Shown one piece after another: positions 7,857 to 45,580 of a stretch of DNA of 64,000 nucleotides. The DNA comes from Hansschlegelia plantiphila (GTDB lineage Bacteria > Pseudomonadota > Alphaproteobacteria > Rhizobiales > Methylopilaceae): contig NZ_BSFI01000004.1 of NCBI RefSeq assembly GCF_027922265.1, forward strand, positions 310,001-374,000. Reading direction: 5' to 3'. The notes under the pieces were generated by a model, which ran no database searches, was not told the origin of the DNA, and was given only the letters and a program-made list of their open reading frames with translations. Each line of letters starts with the position of its first letter. Within the stretch, counting starts at the first letter, position 1. The position numbers and the translations under genes were made by a program.

Positions 7857-7972
7857 GATCGAGATTAGCACTTGCTTTTTGTGCGGCGCGGCCGCATCTT
7901 TTTGCAGCGCGGCATTGCGATCTTCCATCGCAGCGCCGCTGCCCTCCTTGGGCGTTTCCTCCCTAGACTTAA

Positions 7973-8006
7973 GGGCCGTTCGCTTTCGCGGGCGGCCCCT
8001 TTTTTT
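7973..8006 (+). terminator. Intrinsic terminator, plus strand, with no obvious upstream gene
   Basis: An 11-bp stem (GGGCCGTTCGC against GCGGGCGGCCC, two G-U pairs) with loop TTTC is followed by seven U residues on the plus strand. No plus-strand protein gene precedes it, so it may end a small or antisense RNA. Confidence 0.65.
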
Positions 8007-8094
8007 GGTCTTAGGTCCAGGCGACGGGACATTGTCCCCATCCCGACGGCATTGCAAGGATTTTCCTATCAGACGATAGGAGCAGGGTTGACGG

Positions 8095-10928: not shown

Positions 10929-11717
10929 CTATTCGGGGACGCCCGCGAAGGTGGCCGCCGCGGATGTCTTCCGCAGATGGTGGAGGGGCACGATCGCGAA
11001 GGCGGAGGGGTCCTCTCCCGTGAGCGCGACGCGCCGCACCGGGACGCCATACATGCGCGCGAGATTGGTCTCGTCGACGACCGTTTCCGCGGGGCCTTCG
11101 ACATGGATGCCGTCCGGAAACAGCAGCAGAGCCCGGTGGGCGACGGCGAGCGCGTGCTCGGGATGGTGCGTCGTGAACAGGATCGAGAGCCTTCGCTCGC
11201 GCGAGAGCCTGCCCATCAGACGCAGCACGACCCCCTGATTGGCGAGATCCAGCGCCGAGGTCGGTTCGTCGAGGACGAGCGTTGCCGGATCGCTGGCGAG
11301 CGCGCGGGCGAGCAGCACGAGTTGTCGCTGACCACCGCTGAGCCGATCGTAGCGCTGCCCGGCGATCGAGGAGAGGCCGACCTCATCGAGACACTCCTGG
11401 GCGCGCGCCGTATCCCTGCGAGCTGGAGCCTCGAAGCGCCCGAGGAAACGGCTGCGGCCGAGCAGGACCATGTCCAGAGCCGTGAGGCCCTGATCGGCGG
11501 CCAACGCCTGCGGAACATAGCCGACCGCATCTGACCCGATCCGTTCGCCCTCCCGCGGCGCCAGCGTGCCGCACAGGACGCGCAGCAGCGTCGTCTTGCC
11601 CGTTCCGTTAGGACCGAGGATCGCGGTGATCTGCGACTGCGCCGGGGCGAGGGAGAGGCGCCGGAACAGCCAGCGCGAGGGCTGGAACGAGTGGCCTACG
11701 TCCCGAAGCGCGATCAT
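10929..11717 (-). CDS. FecE-type ABC transporter ATP-binding protein
   Basis: The 262-residue ATPase of a FecBCD/BtuCD-type importer for metal chelates, cobalamin or similar ligands. The Walker A is GPNGTGKTTLL, the Q-loop region is VGYVPQALAADQ, the signature is RLSGGQRQLVLLARAL, and the Walker B is LVLDEPTSALD, followed by a switch His in FTTHHPEHAL. Its ATG overlaps the stop of the permease gene by one base (TGATG), so the two are translationally coupled. It is the last gene of the minus-strand substrate-binding protein, permease, ATPase operon. Confidence 0.9.
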   Translation of the reverse strand: MIALRDVGHSFQPSRWLFRRLSLAPAQSQITAILGPNGTGKTTLLRVLCGTLAPREGERIGSDAVGYVPQALAADQGLTALDMVLLGRSRFLGRFEAPARRDTARAQECLDEVGLSSIAGQRYDRLSGGQRQLVLLARALASDPATLVLDEPTSALDLANQGVVLRLMGRLSRERRLSILFTTHHPEHALAVAHRALLLFPDGIHVEGPAETVVDETNLARMYGVPVRRVALTGEDPSAFAIVPLHHLRKTSAAATFAGVPE

Positions 11718-12772
11718 CACGCCGCGCCCGCCGCGTTCCGGCGCAGCAGATAGGCGAAGACCGGAGTGCCGACGATCGCCGTGACGATGCCGACCGGGAT
11801 CTCCGCGGGCGTCAAGTCGCGCGCCAGCGTGTCCGCGATCACGAGGAAGGTCGCCCCCATCAGGGCGGCGACGGGCAGCAGACGGCGATGGTCGGCTCCC
11901 ACGATCATTCGGGCGAGATTCGGAATGACGAGCCCCACCCAGCCGATCGTGCCGCTGACGGCGACCTGAGCGGATATCGCGAGGCAGGCGGCCGCGAGCA
12001 GCACCAGCCGGTCGCGGACCGGATCCACGCCCAGCGTGCGCGCCTCCTCGTCGCCGAGGGCGAGCACGTTGACGCGCCAGCGCATGCCCAGCATCACGAT
12101 CCCGGCCAGCGCGGTGCACCCGACGACCAGGCCGAGCTTGGGCCAGGTCGCGGAGGCGAAGCTGCCGAGCAGCCAGAACACGACGCCGGGCAGCTTGGTC
12201 TCGGGATCGGCGACATAAGTCACGAGGCCGACCAGCGCGCCGCAGAAGGCGCTCACCACCACTCCTGCAAGCACGAGCGTGAGAACCGGCGAGAGGCCGT
12301 CGCTGCGGTGGATGGCGAGCACGGCGGCGAGCGCCAGCGCGGCCCCTGCGAAGGCGCCGAACTGGACGCTCAGGCCGAAGTCGAGGAACAGGATCGCGGT
12401 CACTCCGCCGAGCGCGGCTCCGGACGCGGCGCCGATCGTCTGCGGGCCGACGAGCGGATTGCGGAAAAGTCCCTGCAGAACCGCGCCGCTCAGCGAGAGA
12501 CCGGCGCCGGCGGCCGCCGCCGTCAGCACGCGTGGCAGCCGCACGACCTCGACCACGATCCGCTCCGTCGGAGACCAGACCGGCGAGACCTCGGCGATCC
12601 GCGCCGCCAGGATCGCGAGCACATGGTCGATCGGCACCGGATAGCGTCCGGCCGTCACGGACCAGAGAAGCGCCGCAATCAGCGCCGCGAACAACGCGAC
12701 GACGAGGGTCGCCTGCCGCGTCCCGCCGACCGCCGGCGCGGTCCCTCCGGAGACGAGCCCGCCTTGGCTCAT
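11717..12772 (-). CDS. FecCD-family ABC transporter permease
   Basis: A 351-residue inner-membrane permease with about nine or ten hydrophobic helices. FecCD signatures are visible: RLPRVLTAAAAGAGLSLSGA, LQGLFRNPLVGPQTIGAASG, WLLGSFASATW, LGDEEARTLGVDP, and GTIGWVGLVIPNLAR with GADHRRLLPVAALMGA after it. It overlaps the substrate-binding protein gene upstream by four bases and the ATPase gene downstream by one base. Only one permease gene is present, so the transporter would use a homodimer, like BtuC. Confidence 0.93.
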   Translation of the reverse strand: MSQGGLVSGGTAPAVGGTRQATLVVALFAALIAALLWSVTAGRYPVPIDHVLAILAARIAEVSPVWSPTERIVVEVVRLPRVLTAAAAGAGLSLSGAVLQGLFRNPLVGPQTIGAASGAALGGVTAILFLDFGLSVQFGAFAGAALALAAVLAIHRSDGLSPVLTLVLAGVVVSAFCGALVGLVTYVADPETKLPGVVFWLLGSFASATWPKLGLVVGCTALAGIVMLGMRWRVNVLALGDEEARTLGVDPVRDRLVLLAAACLAISAQVAVSGTIGWVGLVIPNLARMIVGADHRRLLPVAALMGATFLVIADTLARDLTPAEIPVGIVTAIVGTPVFAYLLRRNAAGAA

Positions 12773-13908
12773 CGCGTCAAATACCGTTCGTAGCCGGCCG
12801 AGGTGCGATTTTCCTTCGCGAACAGGACGCCGTCGATCTCGTCGTCGCTCAGGGCGTGGCCGTAGAGGAAATCGAACCAGCCGCGCATCGCGCCGCGCAG
12901 ATCTTTCGCCGGACCTCCGGGATGGAGCAAACCGGCCAGCCAGATCCAGGTCAGGGCCGACTCCTGGCTAGGCGGATCCCAGCGATAGCCGCCGAGCGGC
13001 ATCCGGTAAACGCGCCGCGACCTGACGGCCTCGACGTCCTGCCAGCGGGGATCGGCGTAAAGATCGGCCGGCATGACCGTGTCGAAATTGCCGAGCAGAA
13101 CGACCTGCGGGTTCCAGGCGAGGATCTGCTCGATGTTGACCGTCGCGGACGACGGACCGCCAGCGGCGACGTTCGCGCCGCCCGTCAGCCGGATGTAGAA
13201 GTCGTTGTACGAGCCGCGACCCGAGGCGCGATAGGCGTCGGAGGCGCGGGCGAGATAGAGCACGCGCGGTCTGCGGGCGTCGTCGAGGCCGGCGAAAGCC
13301 GCCTTCATGCTCTCGAGTTCGCGGCCCTGCCGCTCGTTCAACTCGCGCGCCCGCGCCTCCTGGCCGGCGACGAGCCCCATCATCCCGATATAACCCGCCA
13401 TGTCTTCCTGCGAGCCATAGCGCATGCCGAGCGCCTTGAGGCCCACGCGCTCCAGCGAGGCCAGCGCGTCGTCGCCGGCGGCCGCCCATGCGAAGACGGC
13501 GTCGGGGCGCAGCGCCAGAATGCTCTCGACGTTTGGCGCGGTTCCCGCCCCCAGGGTGATGTTCGTCGCGATGCGCGCGTAGCCCGGGAACAGCTTGCCG
13601 AGGACGCCGTCCCGCATTGCCGCCGCGGAGGCCGCGTTCATGCCCGCGACGCCGCGCTCGCCTCTGTTGATGGCGATATAGGTTGAGGCGGCCGGCATGG
13701 GCAGGAAAACGGCGCGTTCGGCCGGCTTTTCGAAGATGAAGCTTGCGCCGCGTTGGTCGGTCACTTCGACCGCGCGCGCGGGAACGCTCGCCGCTGCTGC
13801 GAGCGCGAGCGCGAGGGCGAACCGGCGGGGCGGCCGCCTGCACGGCGTGGCCTCGATCGTGGGGCGTTTCAGCGCCGCCTGCAGGCCAAGCGTCATGTCG
13901 CGTGTCAT
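12769..13908 (-). CDS. Periplasmic substrate-binding protein of a FecB/TroA-type ABC importer
   Basis: A 379-residue binding protein with a basic N-terminus and hydrophobic core (RRFALALALAAAASVPARA), consistent with an export signal. The mature part begins VEVTDQRGASFIF, typical of iron-siderophore or cobalamin binding proteins. Later motifs are NVESILALRPDAVF, RVLYLARASDAYR, NIEQILAWNPQVVLLGN, and YRWDPPSQESALTWIWLA. The DPPSQES segment marks a subgroup whose ligand I cannot name. I start at the ATG at 13908. The ATG at 13896 is possible, and the frame is open further upstream. The ligand should match that of the divergent TonB-dependent receptor. Confidence 0.85.
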   Translation of the reverse strand: MTRDMTLGLQAALKRPTIEATPCRRPPRRFALALALAAAASVPARAVEVTDQRGASFIFEKPAERAVFLPMPAASTYIAINRGERGVAGMNAASAAAMRDGVLGKLFPGYARIATNITLGAGTAPNVESILALRPDAVFAWAAAGDDALASLERVGLKALGMRYGSQEDMAGYIGMMGLVAGQEARARELNERQGRELESMKAAFAGLDDARRPRVLYLARASDAYRASGRGSYNDFYIRLTGGANVAAGGPSSATVNIEQILAWNPQVVLLGNFDTVMPADLYADPRWQDVEAVRSRRVYRMPLGGYRWDPPSQESALTWIWLAGLLHPGGPAKDLRGAMRGWFDFLYGHALSDDEIDGVLFAKENRTSAGYERYLTR

Positions 13909-14107
13909 CCAGAAAGCCGGTCGCCATCGCGCGGCGACCGGAAGAAGCCGTTCTGTGTGAGTCCAATGTGCGCAAGTCCACAAGAGCGATAATGACGCAG
14001 CCAGCATGTTGTAATTATTCTAGTTAAATATACTTGGAATACGCTTGCTCTGTATATCGAGTATGCATAAGAAATCAGGCGCGTGATCGCCCCTGGAACA
14101 CTGTATT
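13909..14107. promoter_or_regulatory. AT-rich divergent promoter region of the uptake island
   Basis: This spacer between the binding-protein gene and the receptor gene drops well below the surrounding GC content from about 13995 onward (for example TGTTGTAATTATTC and AAATATTTTGATATT). It must hold promoters for both directions. I saw no clear Fur, Irr or RirA box and no cobalamin riboswitch motif, so the regulator is unknown. Confidence 0.5.
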
Positions 14108-16390
14108 ATGCACAACTGCACATTGAAATATTTTGATATTGCCGACGATCTGGCGAGGACGTCGTGTAAAGGTGACGGGCGTCGTGTGGTGATTTTGAGG
14201 TGTTCGGCCTCGTTGTTCGCTCTCACGACGGCTTTGTCGCTGCCCGGGCCGGCTCTGGCGCAGAGCGCGACGTCGGCCGAGACCGTCGAGCTTCCGGCGA
14301 TCGAAGTGTCGGGCGAGCGGAAGAGTGAGCGCGATTCTCTGCAGCCGCGCGGCGGCAGTCTTCCGCAGCCGCAGACTCTCAATCGCCAGATCACGCAGAG
14401 CGCCACCGTGGTCGACCGGGCCCAGATTGAGCAGACGTCTCCAACCGGCCTGCTCGACATCCTCGCCACGGTGCCCGGAATCTCGGTGGCGCGGGCGGGA
14501 GGCATCGGCGGCCAGATTTATCTGCGGGGGTTCAGCTCGAACAATTTTCGCTCGCCGCTCTTTGTGGACGGCCAGCGCTTCCGCGGCCGCAACACCCTGC
14601 AGCTCAACTATTTCTCGCCCGGTGAGATCGAGCGGGTCGAGGTGATCCGAGGGCCTGCCTCCGTGCTCTACGGCAGCGAGGCGCTGACCGGTCTCGTCAA
14701 TATCGTGACCCGCACTCCCAGCGGCGATCCGAGCGGCCCCTTCCGGATCACGCATGGCGGCTCTTCGGCCAGCTTCGGCACCGCCGCAAAATCGGTGGCG
14801 ACGGACAACTGGATCGAGGGCGCGGGCGGCGGCTTCGACTATCTTGCGAGCGTCAGCGGCCGCTGGGGCGACGATTACCACACGCCGCTCGGCAAGGCGC
14901 CCAACAGCGACTACAAGAGCCTCGGCGGCAGCCTGAAGCTGGGATACACGCCCACCGCCGGACAGCGGTTCGAACTCGCGTTGCGCCACTACACCGAGGA
15001 GGACGGCCGCGCCGGCGGCGTCGGCGGGGCTCCCGGAGCGCCCTACCTGAAAGTCAGGCAGAGCCCGAACGACGTCACGATGGGCCGGCTGTCCTACACC
15101 GGCGAATTCGACGGGCCGGTCAAGAAGGTCGAGGCGTCAGTCTACGCAAACTACTACGACACCACGCTCAAGACGAACAGCAACACGATCAACGCCGATG
15201 GGATCACGACGCGCCACGTCTCTTCCGGAAGTCATGTCATCGGCCCGCTCGTGTTCGGCGGCCGCGCGGTTGGAACGATCCCGTGGAGCTTCGGAATCGG
15301 CGACGTCAAGACGCTGATTGGCGTCGACGCCTTCAAAGAAAATCGCCCGGGGTCCAAGGGTTGGTCACGCGTAACCACGTTTGATCCGGGGACCGGCGCG
15401 ACGACCGGCGTCACCTTCTCGGGCAAGGCCAAGAACGGGCCGGATACGACGCAGGCCAACGCCGGCGTCTTCATGCTGAACGAATGGACGCCCGTGGAGC
15501 CGCTGACGCTCTCCGCTGGCCTGCGCTACGACTGGTTCCACACCACGTCCGAACTCTCGCCGCTGCCGGCTTCGGTCCGGCCCGCCTTCGTCGGCAACAA
15601 CACGACCGACGGCCACGCGCCGACTGGAAGCATAGGCGCTGTATTCCGTATCCTACCCAACGTCGATCTTCTCGCCAGCGTGGCGACATCCTTCAGAGAG
15701 CCGACGAACTCCGAGATGTACGCCTTTTCGGCGACGACGATTCCCAATCCTTCGCTGAAGCCCGAGAAGGGTTTGACCTATGAAGGCGGCGTCCGCTTCC
15801 ACACCGACGACGCGGAACTGAAGGTCACGGCGTTCGACAGCCATTACAGGAACTTTCTCCAGACCATCGCGGTCAGTTACAATGGAGTCTCGGGCTTCAC
15901 CCAAAGCCAGAACATCGGCAAGGCGGAAGTCAGGGGCATCGAGGCCGAGGGAACCTGGCAGGCGACCCGGACCATCAACCTCTTCGCCTCGCTTACCTAT
16001 TTGCACGGCGACAACAAGACTGCCGGCACGCCGCTTCCATTCCTTGCGCCTTGGCGCGGCCGGGTCGGCGCGCAGTACGCCGCGCCCGACGCGTCCTATT
16101 CGGTCATGGCGGTGGTCGACTGGGCGACGCGCAAAACACGCATCGTCCCCGCTCAGGAATTCGAAACGGCAGGCTATGCGGTTCCGAAGGTATATACGAC
16201 GCTGAATCTCGGAAATATCGTCTCCCCGCAGCTCGGAGACACCAAGCTTATCCTCGGCGTGGAAAATGTATTCGATAAAAAATACGCCGATGCATCGACA
16301 TTCGTGAACGTAGCCTATGATCGGAGCCTGACCAATCCGCTGATCGAGGTCGGCAGGAACTTCACCTTCAAGCTGCAGCACACGTTTTGA
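14108..16390 (+). CDS. TonB-dependent outer-membrane receptor
   Basis: A 760-residue ligand-gated outer-membrane porin. After a hydrophobic signal segment (ASLFALTTALSLPGPALAQ), a TonB-box-like ELPAIEVSGER precedes the plug domain. The plug carries VVDRAQIEQTSPTGLLDIL, GQIYLRGFSSNNFRSPLFVD, and RVEVIRGPASVLYGSEALTG. The beta-barrel follows, with FREPTNSEMYAF, NPSLKPEKGLTYEGG, and KLILGVENVFDKKYAD, and ends in a terminal Phe. The ATG at 14108 leaves a long N-terminal extension. GTG at 14186 or 14189, behind AAAGGTG, would give a more normal signal peptide. It is divergent from a FecBCD operon and followed by three coupled unknown genes. Its ligand is unknown. Confidence 0.92.
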   Translation: MHNCTLKYFDIADDLARTSCKGDGRRVVILRCSASLFALTTALSLPGPALAQSATSAETVELPAIEVSGERKSERDSLQPRGGSLPQPQTLNRQITQSATVVDRAQIEQTSPTGLLDILATVPGISVARAGGIGGQIYLRGFSSNNFRSPLFVDGQRFRGRNTLQLNYFSPGEIERVEVIRGPASVLYGSEALTGLVNIVTRTPSGDPSGPFRITHGGSSASFGTAAKSVATDNWIEGAGGGFDYLASVSGRWGDDYHTPLGKAPNSDYKSLGGSLKLGYTPTAGQRFELALRHYTEEDGRAGGVGGAPGAPYLKVRQSPNDVTMGRLSYTGEFDGPVKKVEASVYANYYDTTLKTNSNTINADGITTRHVSSGSHVIGPLVFGGRAVGTIPWSFGIGDVKTLIGVDAFKENRPGSKGWSRVTTFDPGTGATTGVTFSGKAKNGPDTTQANAGVFMLNEWTPVEPLTLSAGLRYDWFHTTSELSPLPASVRPAFVGNNTTDGHAPTGSIGAVFRILPNVDLLASVATSFREPTNSEMYAFSATTIPNPSLKPEKGLTYEGGVRFHTDDAELKVTAFDSHYRNFLQTIAVSYNGVSGFTQSQNIGKAEVRGIEAEGTWQATRTINLFASLTYLHGDNKTAGTPLPFLAPWRGRVGAQYAAPDASYSVMAVVDWATRKTRIVPAQEFETAGYAVPKVYTTLNLGNIVSPQLGDTKLILGVENVFDKKYADASTFVNVAYDRSLTNPLIEVGRNFTFKLQHTF

Positions 16391-16445
16391 CGAGCCGACG
16401 GTCCGGCTGCCGGAACGGAACCCCGCCCGCCTGGAGAAACGACAG

Positions 16446-16979
16446 GTGACGACGTTCCCGCCGGTCAGCTCCGTTATCACGATCCAGGGCGAGGAGGAGC
16501 CGATCGCAATCGGCTTCTCGGCGGTGGCCGCCTATCACGGTCAGGCAGCGCTCGCGATGCTCGCCGTGACGTTCCAGGCCCTGAAGACGGCGATCGCCCT
16601 GCTGTCGCCTGAAGCGCCGCCGCGCCGCGACGATATTTCGATCGTCAGCGGCCATCCCGGACCGGGGGTGCGCGACGCGTTTGAATTCGTCGCGCGGGCC
16701 GTGACGCGCGGCGCTTATGCGGTCGACCGTTCGCTGCCGGAGGCGCGGCTCGCGCCGGGCTTCGATATCTCCTACAGCTTCCGCATCACGATCGGCGGCA
16801 GAACGGCCGAGCTCGCCCTCCGGTCCGACGCTCTGCCGGAGCGCTTCTTCTCCCTCAACTTCACGCCCGACCGCAGCACAGACGAAAACGCTGAACTGAG
16901 CCGGCTGAAACGCGCCATCGCGGCCGACGTTCTCGCCGGGCCGGCCCACGCTCTCTTCGACGTCAGGATCGTGTCCTGA
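16446..16979 (+). CDS. Conserved hypothetical protein, possibly FmdE-like
   Basis: A 177-residue cytosolic protein without a signal peptide. The segments GFSAVAAYHGQAALAML and ISIVSGHPGPGVRDAFEFV recall the FmdE fold (PF02663), which has an HG motif near the N-terminus and a later conserved Gly/Asp region. The match is weak and the usual cysteines are absent. FmdE was named from a formylmethanofuran dehydrogenase operon and its role is unsettled. The start is GTG, ten bases after GGAG and 55 bases after the receptor stop. The stop overlaps the next gene, so this is the first member of a coupled trio. Confidence 0.6.
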   Translation: MTTFPPVSSVITIQGEEEPIAIGFSAVAAYHGQAALAMLAVTFQALKTAIALLSPEAPPRRDDISIVSGHPGPGVRDAFEFVARAVTRGAYAVDRSLPEARLAPGFDISYSFRITIGGRTAELALRSDALPERFFSLNFTPDRSTDENAELSRLKRAIAADVLAGPAHALFDVRIVS

Positions 16980-17590
16980 TCCGGCCCGCTCTCTATTTCA
17001 CCTTCGGGCATCCCGACGGCTCCGGGGAAGCTCTGGCGAACCGCGAGGAAGCCCGCGGGCTGATCGAGCGCCGCAGTCTCTACGACTTCGACGAGACCGA
17101 TCTCGACCGCTATCGCGCGCTGCTGATCGGCATGCACGCCGACCAGCGCTTCCTGGCCAGCCGAGCCGAACGGATCGCGTCTTTCCTCGACGCCGGCGGC
17201 ACGGTCGTCGCCAACGGCCACGTCGCCTATCCTTTCCTGCCCGGGATCGACTCCGCGAGAACGTCGCCGAACTCCCGACTGGACGATCTGCGCATCCTGA
17301 GGCTCGCGTCCCACCCGATCTGGGAGGGCGTCTCCGGAGAGGACCTGACCTTCCGGAAGGGCGTCGCGGGCTTTTACGGGCGCGCCTGGCACGAGCCGCC
17401 GCCAGGCGCGCTCGTCGTCAACGCCGTCGGTGCGCCGGAGCGCGCGCTCGACATCCTCTATCCCGTCGGCCATGGGCGCGTCCTGCTCCATGGCGGCAAC
17501 GACCTCTGGCAGTTCGGCGCGATGGACTCGACGGCGCGCCTCGCGCCGCAGTTTCTGGAATGGCTGCTCGCGCCGGAGGACAGGTCGTGA
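16976..17590 (+). CDS. Class I amidotransferase-like / ThuA-like protein, CTG start inferred
   Basis: A ~204-residue protein read from a CTG that overlaps the preceding TGA (C-TGA), the same four-base coupling seen at the next junction. No ATG, GTG or TTG exists in frame near this point, while coding bias continues from here. The first in-frame ATG, at 17132, would remove the first beta strand. Features are ALYFTFGHPDGSGEAL, RYRALLIGMHADQRFL, and ERIASFLDAGGTVVANGHVAYPFLP, which fit a flavodoxin-like GATase1 or ThuA fold. The position of the catalytic Cys of true amidotransferases is occupied by other residues (VVANGHV), so this is probably a binding or non-canonical enzyme. Its function is unknown. 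Confidence 0.6.
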   Translation: MIRPALYFTFGHPDGSGEALANREEARGLIERRSLYDFDETDLDRYRALLIGMHADQRFLASRAERIASFLDAGGTVVANGHVAYPFLPGIDSARTSPNSRLDDLRILRLASHPIWEGVSGEDLTFRKGVAGFYGRAWHEPPPGALVVNAVGAPERALDILYPVGHGRVLLHGGNDLWQFGAMDSTARLAPQFLEWLLAPEDRS

Positions 17591-18258
17591 AGCTCGCCGT
17601 GCTCGACGGAGGCGCCTTCTACCATCACGCGACCATCTACGGCCCGCGCTATCGAGACCTGTTCGACCGGCCGATCTACATGCGCGACCTGACGCCCGAC
17701 GACCTCACCGACGTGGGAGTCCTGATCGTGCCGGATCGGATCAACCCCGACGTGCTGAGGGCGAAAAAGGACGTCCTCACGAACTTTCTCGATCGGGGCC
17801 GGACGCTCATCGCGCTCGGCGAGAACCAGGTCGAGACCTGGCTGCCGGGGGTCGGCTGGTCGCCCCGCCCGACGAATTTCTGGTGGTGGCTCGACGAGAA
17901 CGCGGAGCCCGAGCAGCGCCTTGTCGAGCCGGCGCATGAGTTGTTTGTAGCCGTGCCTTTCGCCGACGCCATCTGGCACTACCATGGCGTGTTGACGCCG
18001 CCGGCGGGAGCCCGAACGCTGATCGACGTGCCCGCCGATCCCGAAGGCCGCGACGAAGGCGGAGCGCTGCTCTATGACGACCAGGCGAGCTTCGCGGGTC
18101 GGGCGATCGTCTCGACGCTGGACCCCTTCTATCATCACGGCAGCAGCTTCATGCCGGCGACGACGCGCTTCCTCGATGGCTTCCTGCCCTGGGCCCAGAG
18201 GCTCGCGTCAGCGGTCTCAGAAATTCCCGGCGCCGGCGCCGAAGATGAACTTGCCTGA
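17587..18258 (+). CDS. Second class I amidotransferase-like protein, unknown function
   Basis: A 223-residue protein that starts at a GTG overlapping the stop of the previous gene (GTGA). It begins KLAVLDGGAFYHHATIYGPRY, and the core includes DVGVLIVPDRINPD, LTNFLDRGRTLIALGENQVE and a Trp-rich stretch (NFWWWLDE). The C-terminal strand ends IVSTLDPFYHHGSSFMPATTRF. This again suggests a GATase1-like fold related to the upstream neighbour, with distinctive paired His (FYHH) near both ends. The His pairs could be metal or ligand sites, which is inference. The 3' end overlaps a convergent lipoprotein gene by 42 bases. Confidence 0.7.
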   Translation: MKLAVLDGGAFYHHATIYGPRYRDLFDRPIYMRDLTPDDLTDVGVLIVPDRINPDVLRAKKDVLTNFLDRGRTLIALGENQVETWLPGVGWSPRPTNFWWWLDENAEPEQRLVEPAHELFVAVPFADAIWHYHGVLTPPAGARTLIDVPADPEGRDEGGALLYDDQASFAGRAIVSTLDPFYHHGSSFMPATTRFLDGFLPWAQRLASAVSEIPGAGAEDELA

Positions 18259-18570
18259 CGTCCCGTCGTCGAGCGTGAACGTCCCCTGTCCGCTCGAGCC
18301 GCTGGAATCGCGCTTGGCGACGATGGTCCCCTTGCGGCCGTTGCTGCAGGCGACCTGAGCCCTGATGTTCGGATCGACCGGCCGCGTGTCGAACACGCCG
18401 TCGCATTTGATCTTGCCGTCGGTAAAGGTGAACCGAGATCCAGGCTTCGCGCCTGGCGCCGCGGAGCCGGTGAACACATGATTCTCGCCGCTGATCGCAA
18501 CAAGCGGAATGGACGATGCGCAGCCCGCCAGGAGCCCTGCAAGCACTACGGCGCTGAAACGAACCTTCAC
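18217..18570 (-). CDS. Small lipoprotein of unknown function
   Basis: A 117-residue protein with signal VRFSAVVLAGLLAGC, whose lipobox LAGC predicts lipidation. The mature part is a small polar domain with ENHVFTGSA, GSRFTFTDGKIKCDGVFD, and GTFTLDDGTSGKFIFGAG. I chose GTG at 18570, eight bases after GGAGGGGA, over the ATG six codons upstream. I recognise no named domain. It is convergent with the amidotransferase-like gene and overlaps its end. Confidence 0.7.
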   Translation of the reverse strand: MKVRFSAVVLAGLLAGCASSIPLVAISGENHVFTGSAAPGAKPGSRFTFTDGKIKCDGVFDTRPVDPNIRAQVACSNGRKGTIVAKRDSSGSSGQGTFTLDDGTSGKFIFGAGAGNF

Positions 18571-18764
18571 GGGCGCTCCCCTCCTCAATCACGCGATCCA
18601 TGGCGCGGGCGGGCGCCCGCCCGCGCAGAAAACGCCCAGTAACACAAGGTCCGCCTCCGCCACACCTACGTTGCGGTCGCGGCCACGACGGGCGTCAGCG
18701 CGAACAGGCTGGCCGCCGCAGCAGCTTCGAGACTTGGACCGTTTTTCCCACGAACCGCGATACG

Positions 18765-45381: not shown

Positions 45382-45450
45382 CCGCATCGGGACCTGCGCC
45401 GTTCGGGCGCCGGTCCCTCGACATCCCCGCCGATCGCTCCTAACCTCGGC

Positions 45451-45547
45451 TCCGTTCCGAGGGGCGTCCCGCTGCGATGCGGGGCTGAGATGGCCAGAGG
45501 CCGATCCCTTCGAACCTGATCCGGGTCATGCCGGCGAAGGGACGGGA
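45451..45547 (+). promoter_or_regulatory. TPP riboswitch (THI element)
   Basis: The conserved THI-box parts appear in order: AGGGGCGTCCC, then GGGGCTGAGATGG, then CCCTTCGAACCTGATCCGGG and TCATGCCGGCGAAGGGA. The outer stem P1 forms between TCCGTTCC and GGGACGGGA. It lies about 90 bases ahead of thiC and should turn the gene off when thiamine pyrophosphate is abundant. Confidence 0.97.
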
Positions 45548-45580
45548 CCGACGGCCGAGCCATGCGCGCGGCCTCCCTGA

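Follow-up and report, generated by a model that had tools for sequence, protein, structure and literature searches.

Which ligand is imported by a TonB-dependent receptor and a FecBCD-type ATP-binding cassette (ABC) importer that are encoded beside three proteins of unfamiliar families, and what do these three proteins do? The question is raised by a locus of Hansschlegelia plantiphila within a stretch of 64,000 nucleotides (hereafter the window; contig C4:310001-374000 of a 3.8 Mb genome in 23 contigs), where three overlapping genes, here called G1, G2 and G3, follow the receptor gene and the importer operon is divergent from it. We know of no described uptake system to which G1-G3 belong. 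Here, we argue that the operon is, with reasonable probability, an acquired ferric-chelate uptake system in which G1-G3 bind the imported complex and release or process iron or its ligand.

The G2-G3 pair is kept beside ABC importers

The distribution of the module is patchy. Among 72,556 plasmid records, 32 contain a G3 relative. In genome searches, with the source genome counted each time, G3 was found in 2 of 101 relatives and 7 of 385 members of the class when the window protein served as query, and in 4 of 398 members of the phylum and 26 of 397 members of the order when an alignment did. Within the genus, the window's own genome was the only one of 13 with G3, and a search of viral contigs for G1 and G3 returned no relative. 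We took the neighbourhoods from 15 of these plasmid records and from all 33 other genomes with G3 (48 records or genomes). After L033, a duplicate of L002, was dropped, they comprise 50 loci (numbered with an L below) and 52 distinct G3 domains.

An ABC importer stands beside G3 in all 52 distinct relatives, on the same strand in 51 (in a chain of gaps below 900 bases) and divergent, as in the window, in one. Because the importer is kept beside the pair throughout, this layout is more than chance. Classified by sequence similarity to a single reference set for each type, the importers comprise 30 FecBCD types (one of them the divergent case), 18 Dpp/Nik types, three Ssu types and one Fbp type, the last from a haloarchaeon (L022) in which the module is placed between the importer genes. 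The sequence-only reading had named a FecBCD importer and a TonB receptor as the partners. The importer linkage that it proposed to check is thus conserved, and the Fec type was found in 30 of the 52 relatives, but the other 22 use a different importer, and a receptor lies within 4 kb of G3 in at least five of 52 (three receptor probes were used, which gives a lower bound). Loci of Methylosinus and Methylocystis carry the window's full set, namely importer, G2, G3, G1 and a close receptor relative. G1 accompanies 22 of the 52 G3 relatives, and a single open frame holds both G2 and G3 in 16, with both orders occurring.

Clustering of neighbouring frames, combined with Pfam searches on ten proteins, identified no family that is clearly part of the module, including no catabolic one; it yielded transporter, regulator, chemotaxis or signalling genes, and was muddied by antisense frames and annotated in part. 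No paper title or abstract start was found that describes G2/G3 as a system, a weak negative given that word searches do not easily catch unnamed families. As far as literature searching shows, the set is so far undescribed, and the proposal of an undescribed uptake-linked gene set, made from the letters alone, is supported. One Dpp-type operon (L077, 5272-9935) runs DppB-DppC-DppA-G2-G3 with no ATPase gene found inside; an ATPase may be shared from elsewhere.

Iron-regulator sites and iron response among relatives

We scored the 430-base upstream regions of 49 operons (the duplicate L033 was left out and L090 was too short) for Fur boxes; Irr-type scoring and Markov controls covered 50 upstream regions, with L033 included. 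Sites of both kinds were scored against their consensus sequences. A Fur match of at least 14/19 occurs upstream of nine of the 49 operons against a GC-matched expectation of 0.53; at thresholds of 15/19 and 13/19, the counts are five (expected 0.07) and 14 (expected 2.37). These Fur-box-like sites span three importer types, Fec, Ssu and Dpp. The best match, 18/19, precedes a Dpp-type operon of Paenibacillus (L028), and matches of 15/19 precede the Fec-type operons of L005 (Cupriavidus), L072 (the window's phylum, another class) and L031 (the window's class), as well as the Ssu-type L034. Irr-type matches of at least 12/14 lie upstream of three of 50 operons, where 0.05-0.07 would be expected. 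Fur and Irr operators before the relatives therefore hold as a group, in a minority of operons. Candidate Fur boxes before the G1-Ssu operon of Escherichia coli plasmid pECOED and before a Proteus phosphonate (phn) operon were rejected, their best match of 13/19 being unconvincing.

One relative lies on a plasmid whose genes have been followed under iron depletion. On pVSAL320 of Aliivibrio salmonicida, a single annotated iron ABC transporter is followed by a gene for a G3-G2 fusion, which overlaps it by 4 bases. In an expression study, VSAL_p320_27 and VSAL_p320_29, the binding-protein and ATPase genes of the iron importer on this plasmid, were up 2.4-fold (p 0.01) and 1.7-fold (p 0.07), respectively, under iron depletion (PMC4324432). 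Since product names and gene order agree, these are presumably the importer genes beside the fused G3-G2. Another paper, citing other work, states that the iron ABC transporter of pVSAL320 is expressed in response to iron, probably under Fur control (PMC2627896).

A 13-mer in the window's divergent promoter

The receptor and importer operons share a promoter region containing a candidate operator, AATTATTCTAGTT, at 14013..14025 (+ strand). The pattern AATTATTCYAGTT has exactly two copies in the genome. One is at 14013-14025, 82 bases upstream of the receptor ATG, and the other precedes a TonB receptor that is siderophore-type by NCBIfam ranking (a partial protein, below cut-offs) and stands opposite a phosphopantetheinyl-transferase-like gene. 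With up to one mismatch, five sites were found in the genome, compared with two for a reversed control pattern. A third site, with one mismatch and within a palindrome of 13-base arms, precedes a ferrioxamine-type receptor (again a partial protein below cut-off); the two remaining one-mismatch sites have no receptor downstream, judging by frames. Since the motif came out of a comparison of two of these promoters, independence can be claimed for the third site only. We infer that the window operon is iron-regulated. The palindrome at the ferrioxamine-type receptor is perfect and centres around AATTATTCTATTT. The promoter region was rightly called AT-rich at the outset, with a guanine-plus-cytosine (GC) fraction of 0.49 at 13880-14130 against 0.63-0.71 in the surrounding 1-kb windows.

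G1-G3 are distant from described families

None of the window G1, G2 and G3 proteins reaches a Pfam or NCBIfam cut-off. G2 (16976..17590, + strand, 204 amino acids) and G3 (17587..18258, + strand, 223 amino acids), each aligned as a family of 24 rows, are paralogous (hhalign probability 99.1, E 1.2e-18, 164 columns), and G2 has sub-threshold matches to DUF4350/DUF4159 in Pfam. Cysteine is absent from all three window proteins, and no conserved cysteine column exists in either family (at most 6 of 24 rows for G2 and 13 of 24 for G3). In G3, 13 positions are invariant in 24 of 24 rows (G71, W100, W101, H117, W130, H131, G134, G171, L178, D179, P180, H183 and G185), and the His, Asp and Trp residues among them would suit a site for a metal or an aromatic ligand.

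AlphaFold2 models of G2 and G3, built on two-sequence alignments, are of low confidence (predicted local distance difference test 57.6 and 53.8; predicted template modelling score 0.62 and 0.57). Structural matches of the G3 model include STM1381, STM3548, ThuA-like and Pdx2 proteins (Z 7.5-8.9), and those of the G2 model are of the DJ-1/PfpI type (Z about 9); Z values in the range of about 7-9.4 may reflect no more than a shared arrangement. A Foldseek search with the G3 model gave nothing at E up to 0.001, its best rows being mostly flavodoxins, and PF06283 (ThuA) was matched neither by the window G2/G3 (E up to 1) nor by Methylosinus G2/G3 and Paenibacillus G3 (E up to 0.1). With models of such low confidence, a class I amidotransferase-like fold is no more than probable for both proteins. 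The predicted topology is common to class I amidotransferase-like, ThuA-like and DJ-1 proteins, whereas G2 and G3 lack the catalytic cysteine and stay below the family cut-offs. The paralogy, the missing cysteine and the probable fold bear out the initial description of an amidotransferase-like pair without a catalytic cysteine.

G1 (16446..16979, + strand, 177 amino acids) had been suspected to be FmdE-like, which these relatives corroborate. The window G1 itself matches no Pfam family at E up to 1, but four of ten aligned relatives match PF02663 (FmdE; E up to 1, best 6.7e-4); three of ten also match Glyco_hydro_65C (best E 0.0032). Against the open reading frames of eight independent FmdE loci, a 14-row G1 profile picked FmdE in six, within the inclusion threshold; the best E value, which applies to this small set, was 3e-7. 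No credible match to solved structures was obtained by sequence for G1, G3 or the G1 alignment. The metal motif of FmdE is given as FHGHxC in a paper on FmdE, where FmdE genes are also said to mostly adjoin metal-ion transporter genes (PMC2954224). The motif reads YHGQAA in the window G1, so that the second His and the Cys are missing, while the Y, first H and G are retained in 12-13 of 14 G1 rows. G1 thus appears to be a distant FmdE relative without the metal-binding cysteine, and both families are found near transporters. In a 1.8 Mb genome, an FmdE family gene (L102) lies between what appear by eye to be FecCD-type permease and ATPase genes. On pECOED, a plasmid of E. coli ED1a, a complete Ssu-type importer operon has a G1-like gene on either side (L020, 8935-12370).

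A shared step after import

How could one module serve several transporters? As the same module occurs with four unrelated importers, its simplest role is a shared step after import, whatever the carrier. A ferric complex would cross the outer membrane through the receptor and reach the cytosol by way of the binding protein and the FecCD-type importer. There, the G2-G3 pair, aided by the FmdE-like G1, would bind the complex and release or process the iron or its ligand. G1, G2 and G3 are presumably cytosolic and would act on the imported complex, probably at an unloading step. Iron as the metal of the ligand is well supported, if indirectly. The sequence-only reading had guessed at a molybdenum or tungsten complex or an organic cofactor; we moved this guess to iron because of the Fur/Irr boxes, the Aliivibrio induction and the common 13-mer, evidence that disfavours the earlier candidates.

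The locus resembles siderophore uptake by a TonB receptor and a FecBCD/BtuCD importer in its receptor, binding protein, FecCD permease, ATPase, divergent operons and the iron regulation of its relatives, but it differs in that the module's importer can be replaced by a Dpp, Ssu or Fbp type. Known cytosolic siderophore-unloading proteins include the FhuF- and SIP-type ferric reductases and the Fes/IroD esterases. G1-G3 would occupy the same position in the pathway, yet they show no Pfam or NCBIfam match to these families. For many uptake systems, it is still a puzzle how imported iron is freed from its chelator, and a module found beside four unrelated importer families together with iron-regulator boxes marks such a common post-transport step. 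We tentatively put forward a bolder version, which is possible but rather doubtful, in which G2-G3, either alone or together with G1, represents a new class of cytosolic machinery for ferric chelates, neither esterase nor flavin-based. In Proteobacteria, Firmicutes and haloarchaea, it would be plugged into whichever importer delivers the complex, and in some lineages it would pass the stripped organic ligand to carbon-phosphorus (C-P) lyase. The module as such assigns a testable role to two undescribed protein families and offers a handle for finding so far unrecognized importers of ferric chelates, among them Dpp and Ssu types otherwise annotated as peptide or sulfonate transporters.

Several observations weigh against the ferric-chelate reading. 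In the window promoter, the best Fur and Irr matches (11/19 and 9/14, respectively) do not exceed chance, and the exact Irr core TTAGAANNNTTCTAA has zero copies in the window's genome. Among the relatives, the best Fur match stays below 13 in 35 of 49 upstream regions, and three of the nine Fur sites are weak singly, Markov shuffles scoring as high at rates of 0.055 (L021), 0.02 (L071) and 0.015 (L010). Passages of the A. salmonicida fur-mutant paper (PMC5511505) do not name the p320 genes. Moreover, no enzymatic residue set was identified in G2/G3, whose models are of low confidence, and the gene context at some loci, discussed below with the alternatives, points the same way.

The imported compound might be a nutrient rather than a source of metal, with an organic chelate or phosphonate imported mainly for carbon, nitrogen or phosphorus and G1-G3 beginning its breakdown. 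G1 stands directly 5' of phnG in C-P lyase operons, some loci carry LysR regulators, and the phn operons of Labrenzia and Martelella also contain a G2-G3 fusion; FecBCD-G1-phn loci occur on plasmids of Proteus, Labrenzia, Martelella, Agrobacterium and Rhizobium. The presence of G1, twice with G2/G3, in phn operons means that the organic ligand may be a nutrient there. G1 is a companion of phosphonate use as well, and we speculate that the compounds used may be metal phosphonates. Sulfonate monooxygenase and flavin mononucleotide (FMN) reductase genes also adjoin the Methylocystis locus. We nevertheless regard catabolism as unlikely for the system as a whole: the window's genome has no match to the C-P lyase protein PhnJ, no catabolic family was prominent in the muddied and partly annotated neighbour clustering, and Fur/Irr boxes together with induction by iron limitation are at odds with it. 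To much the same degree, we doubt that G2-G3 are accessory or regulatory importer subunits instead of ligand handlers. Importer linkage at every locus examined and the position of the haloarchaeal module between importer genes would fit such subunits, but a docking surface common to four unrelated importer types is hard to imagine, and the strongly conserved Trp/His/Asp positions of G3 resemble a ligand or metal site.

A ligand containing another metal (Ni, Mo, W, Zn, Cu or Co), or heme or a corrinoid, seems to us quite improbable, although some of the window's own proteins lean that way. By sequence search, the binding protein resembles the solved structures 4ovk, 4hn9, 4pag and HI_1472 (3psa), the last with E 1.5e-15; HI_1472 is MolA of the MolABC molybdate/tungstate importer. 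The window's binding protein reaches no cut-off in an NCBIfam scan. The receptor scores best against heme/transferrin subfamilies of NCBIfam, all below cut-off, and of the five receptors found near relatives, the one at the Chelatococcus locus passes a heme-receptor cut-off, 2.5 kb from the importer genes and with other genes between. A HupE/UreJ-type membrane gene, of a family known for nickel, lies between a Dpp-type importer and G2 in two loci (HupE/UreJ_2 by Pfam in L011, 6185-7396, and by similarity in L084). Against these leads, the window receptor fails the heme/hemoglobin and B12 cut-offs (TIGR01786, 233.9 against 323.75 bits; TIGR01785, 221.3 against 316.85; TIGR01779, 134.4 against 599.7), and heme, which the receptor scores had prompted as the window ligand, was dropped because these cut-offs are missed. 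Likewise, no riboswitch at gathering score was found in 31 loci, where two tRNAs were the only matches, or near the window operon; another receptor of the genome sits behind a cobalamin riboswitch. The Fur boxes of the relatives again favour iron.

Importer exchange and mobility

To what extent do the module and its importer travel together? In a G3 tree built from 53 rows, made with a quick method and supported by the Shimodaira-Hasegawa-like approximate likelihood ratio test only, importer type needs eight changes (minimum three; shuffled mean 18.6), and branches with support of at least 95 force at least four changes for Fec and three for Dpp. The window G3 clusters with three Ssu-linked relatives (support 100); its placement within this group has weak support (81-83). 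Since its own importer is Fec-type, the parts were apparently recombined at some point, and the best reading of the tree is a horizontally moving, importer-swapping module. The idea of transfer as a unit stands in part: the patchy distribution and the single genus genome of 13 agree with transfer, but the grouping of G3 with Ssu-linked relatives speaks against an undivided unit. An empty-site comparison with the nearest genus genome aligned (blastn) only a flanking antiporter gene in another context and so says nothing on insertion. The FecBCD-G1-phn plasmids of Proteus mirabilis (L018/L019) and of L024 and L026 are typed as mobilizable or conjugative, and pECOED is a conjugative IncK2/Z plasmid.

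Gene layout of the window locus

On re-examination, the originally reported coordinates, gene order and divergent arrangement hold, and the gene overlaps are exact. The importer is complete and encoded on the - strand. Its ATPase gene (10929..11735, 268 amino acids, Pfam ABC_tran E 1.3e-24) overlaps that of the FecCD-type (FecC-type) permease (11717..12772, 351 amino acids, PF01032 E 1.3e-82), and the periplasmic binding protein (Peripla_BP_2 E 1.2e-24) spans 12769 to about 13896, its start being uncertain in a frame that is open to 14007. The TonB-dependent receptor (14108..16390, + strand, 760 amino acids; PF07715 Plug E 9.8e-24, PF00593 barrel E 1.1e-52) is separated by 55 bases from the three + strand genes. 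G1 and G2 overlap by CTGA (16976-16979), and G2 and G3 by GTGA (17587-17590). G3 starts with GTG, 6 bases after GGAGGA. For G2, the CTG at 16976 is the likely start, because its frame has no ATG, GTG or TTG upstream of 17132 and AGGA lies 7 bases 5' of this CTG. A small convergent lipoprotein-like frame (18217-18588) shares 42 bases with the 3' end of G3. Elsewhere, the window holds a thiamine pyrophosphate (TPP) riboswitch (45450-45559) and an mmgR/suhB small RNA (7934-8013).

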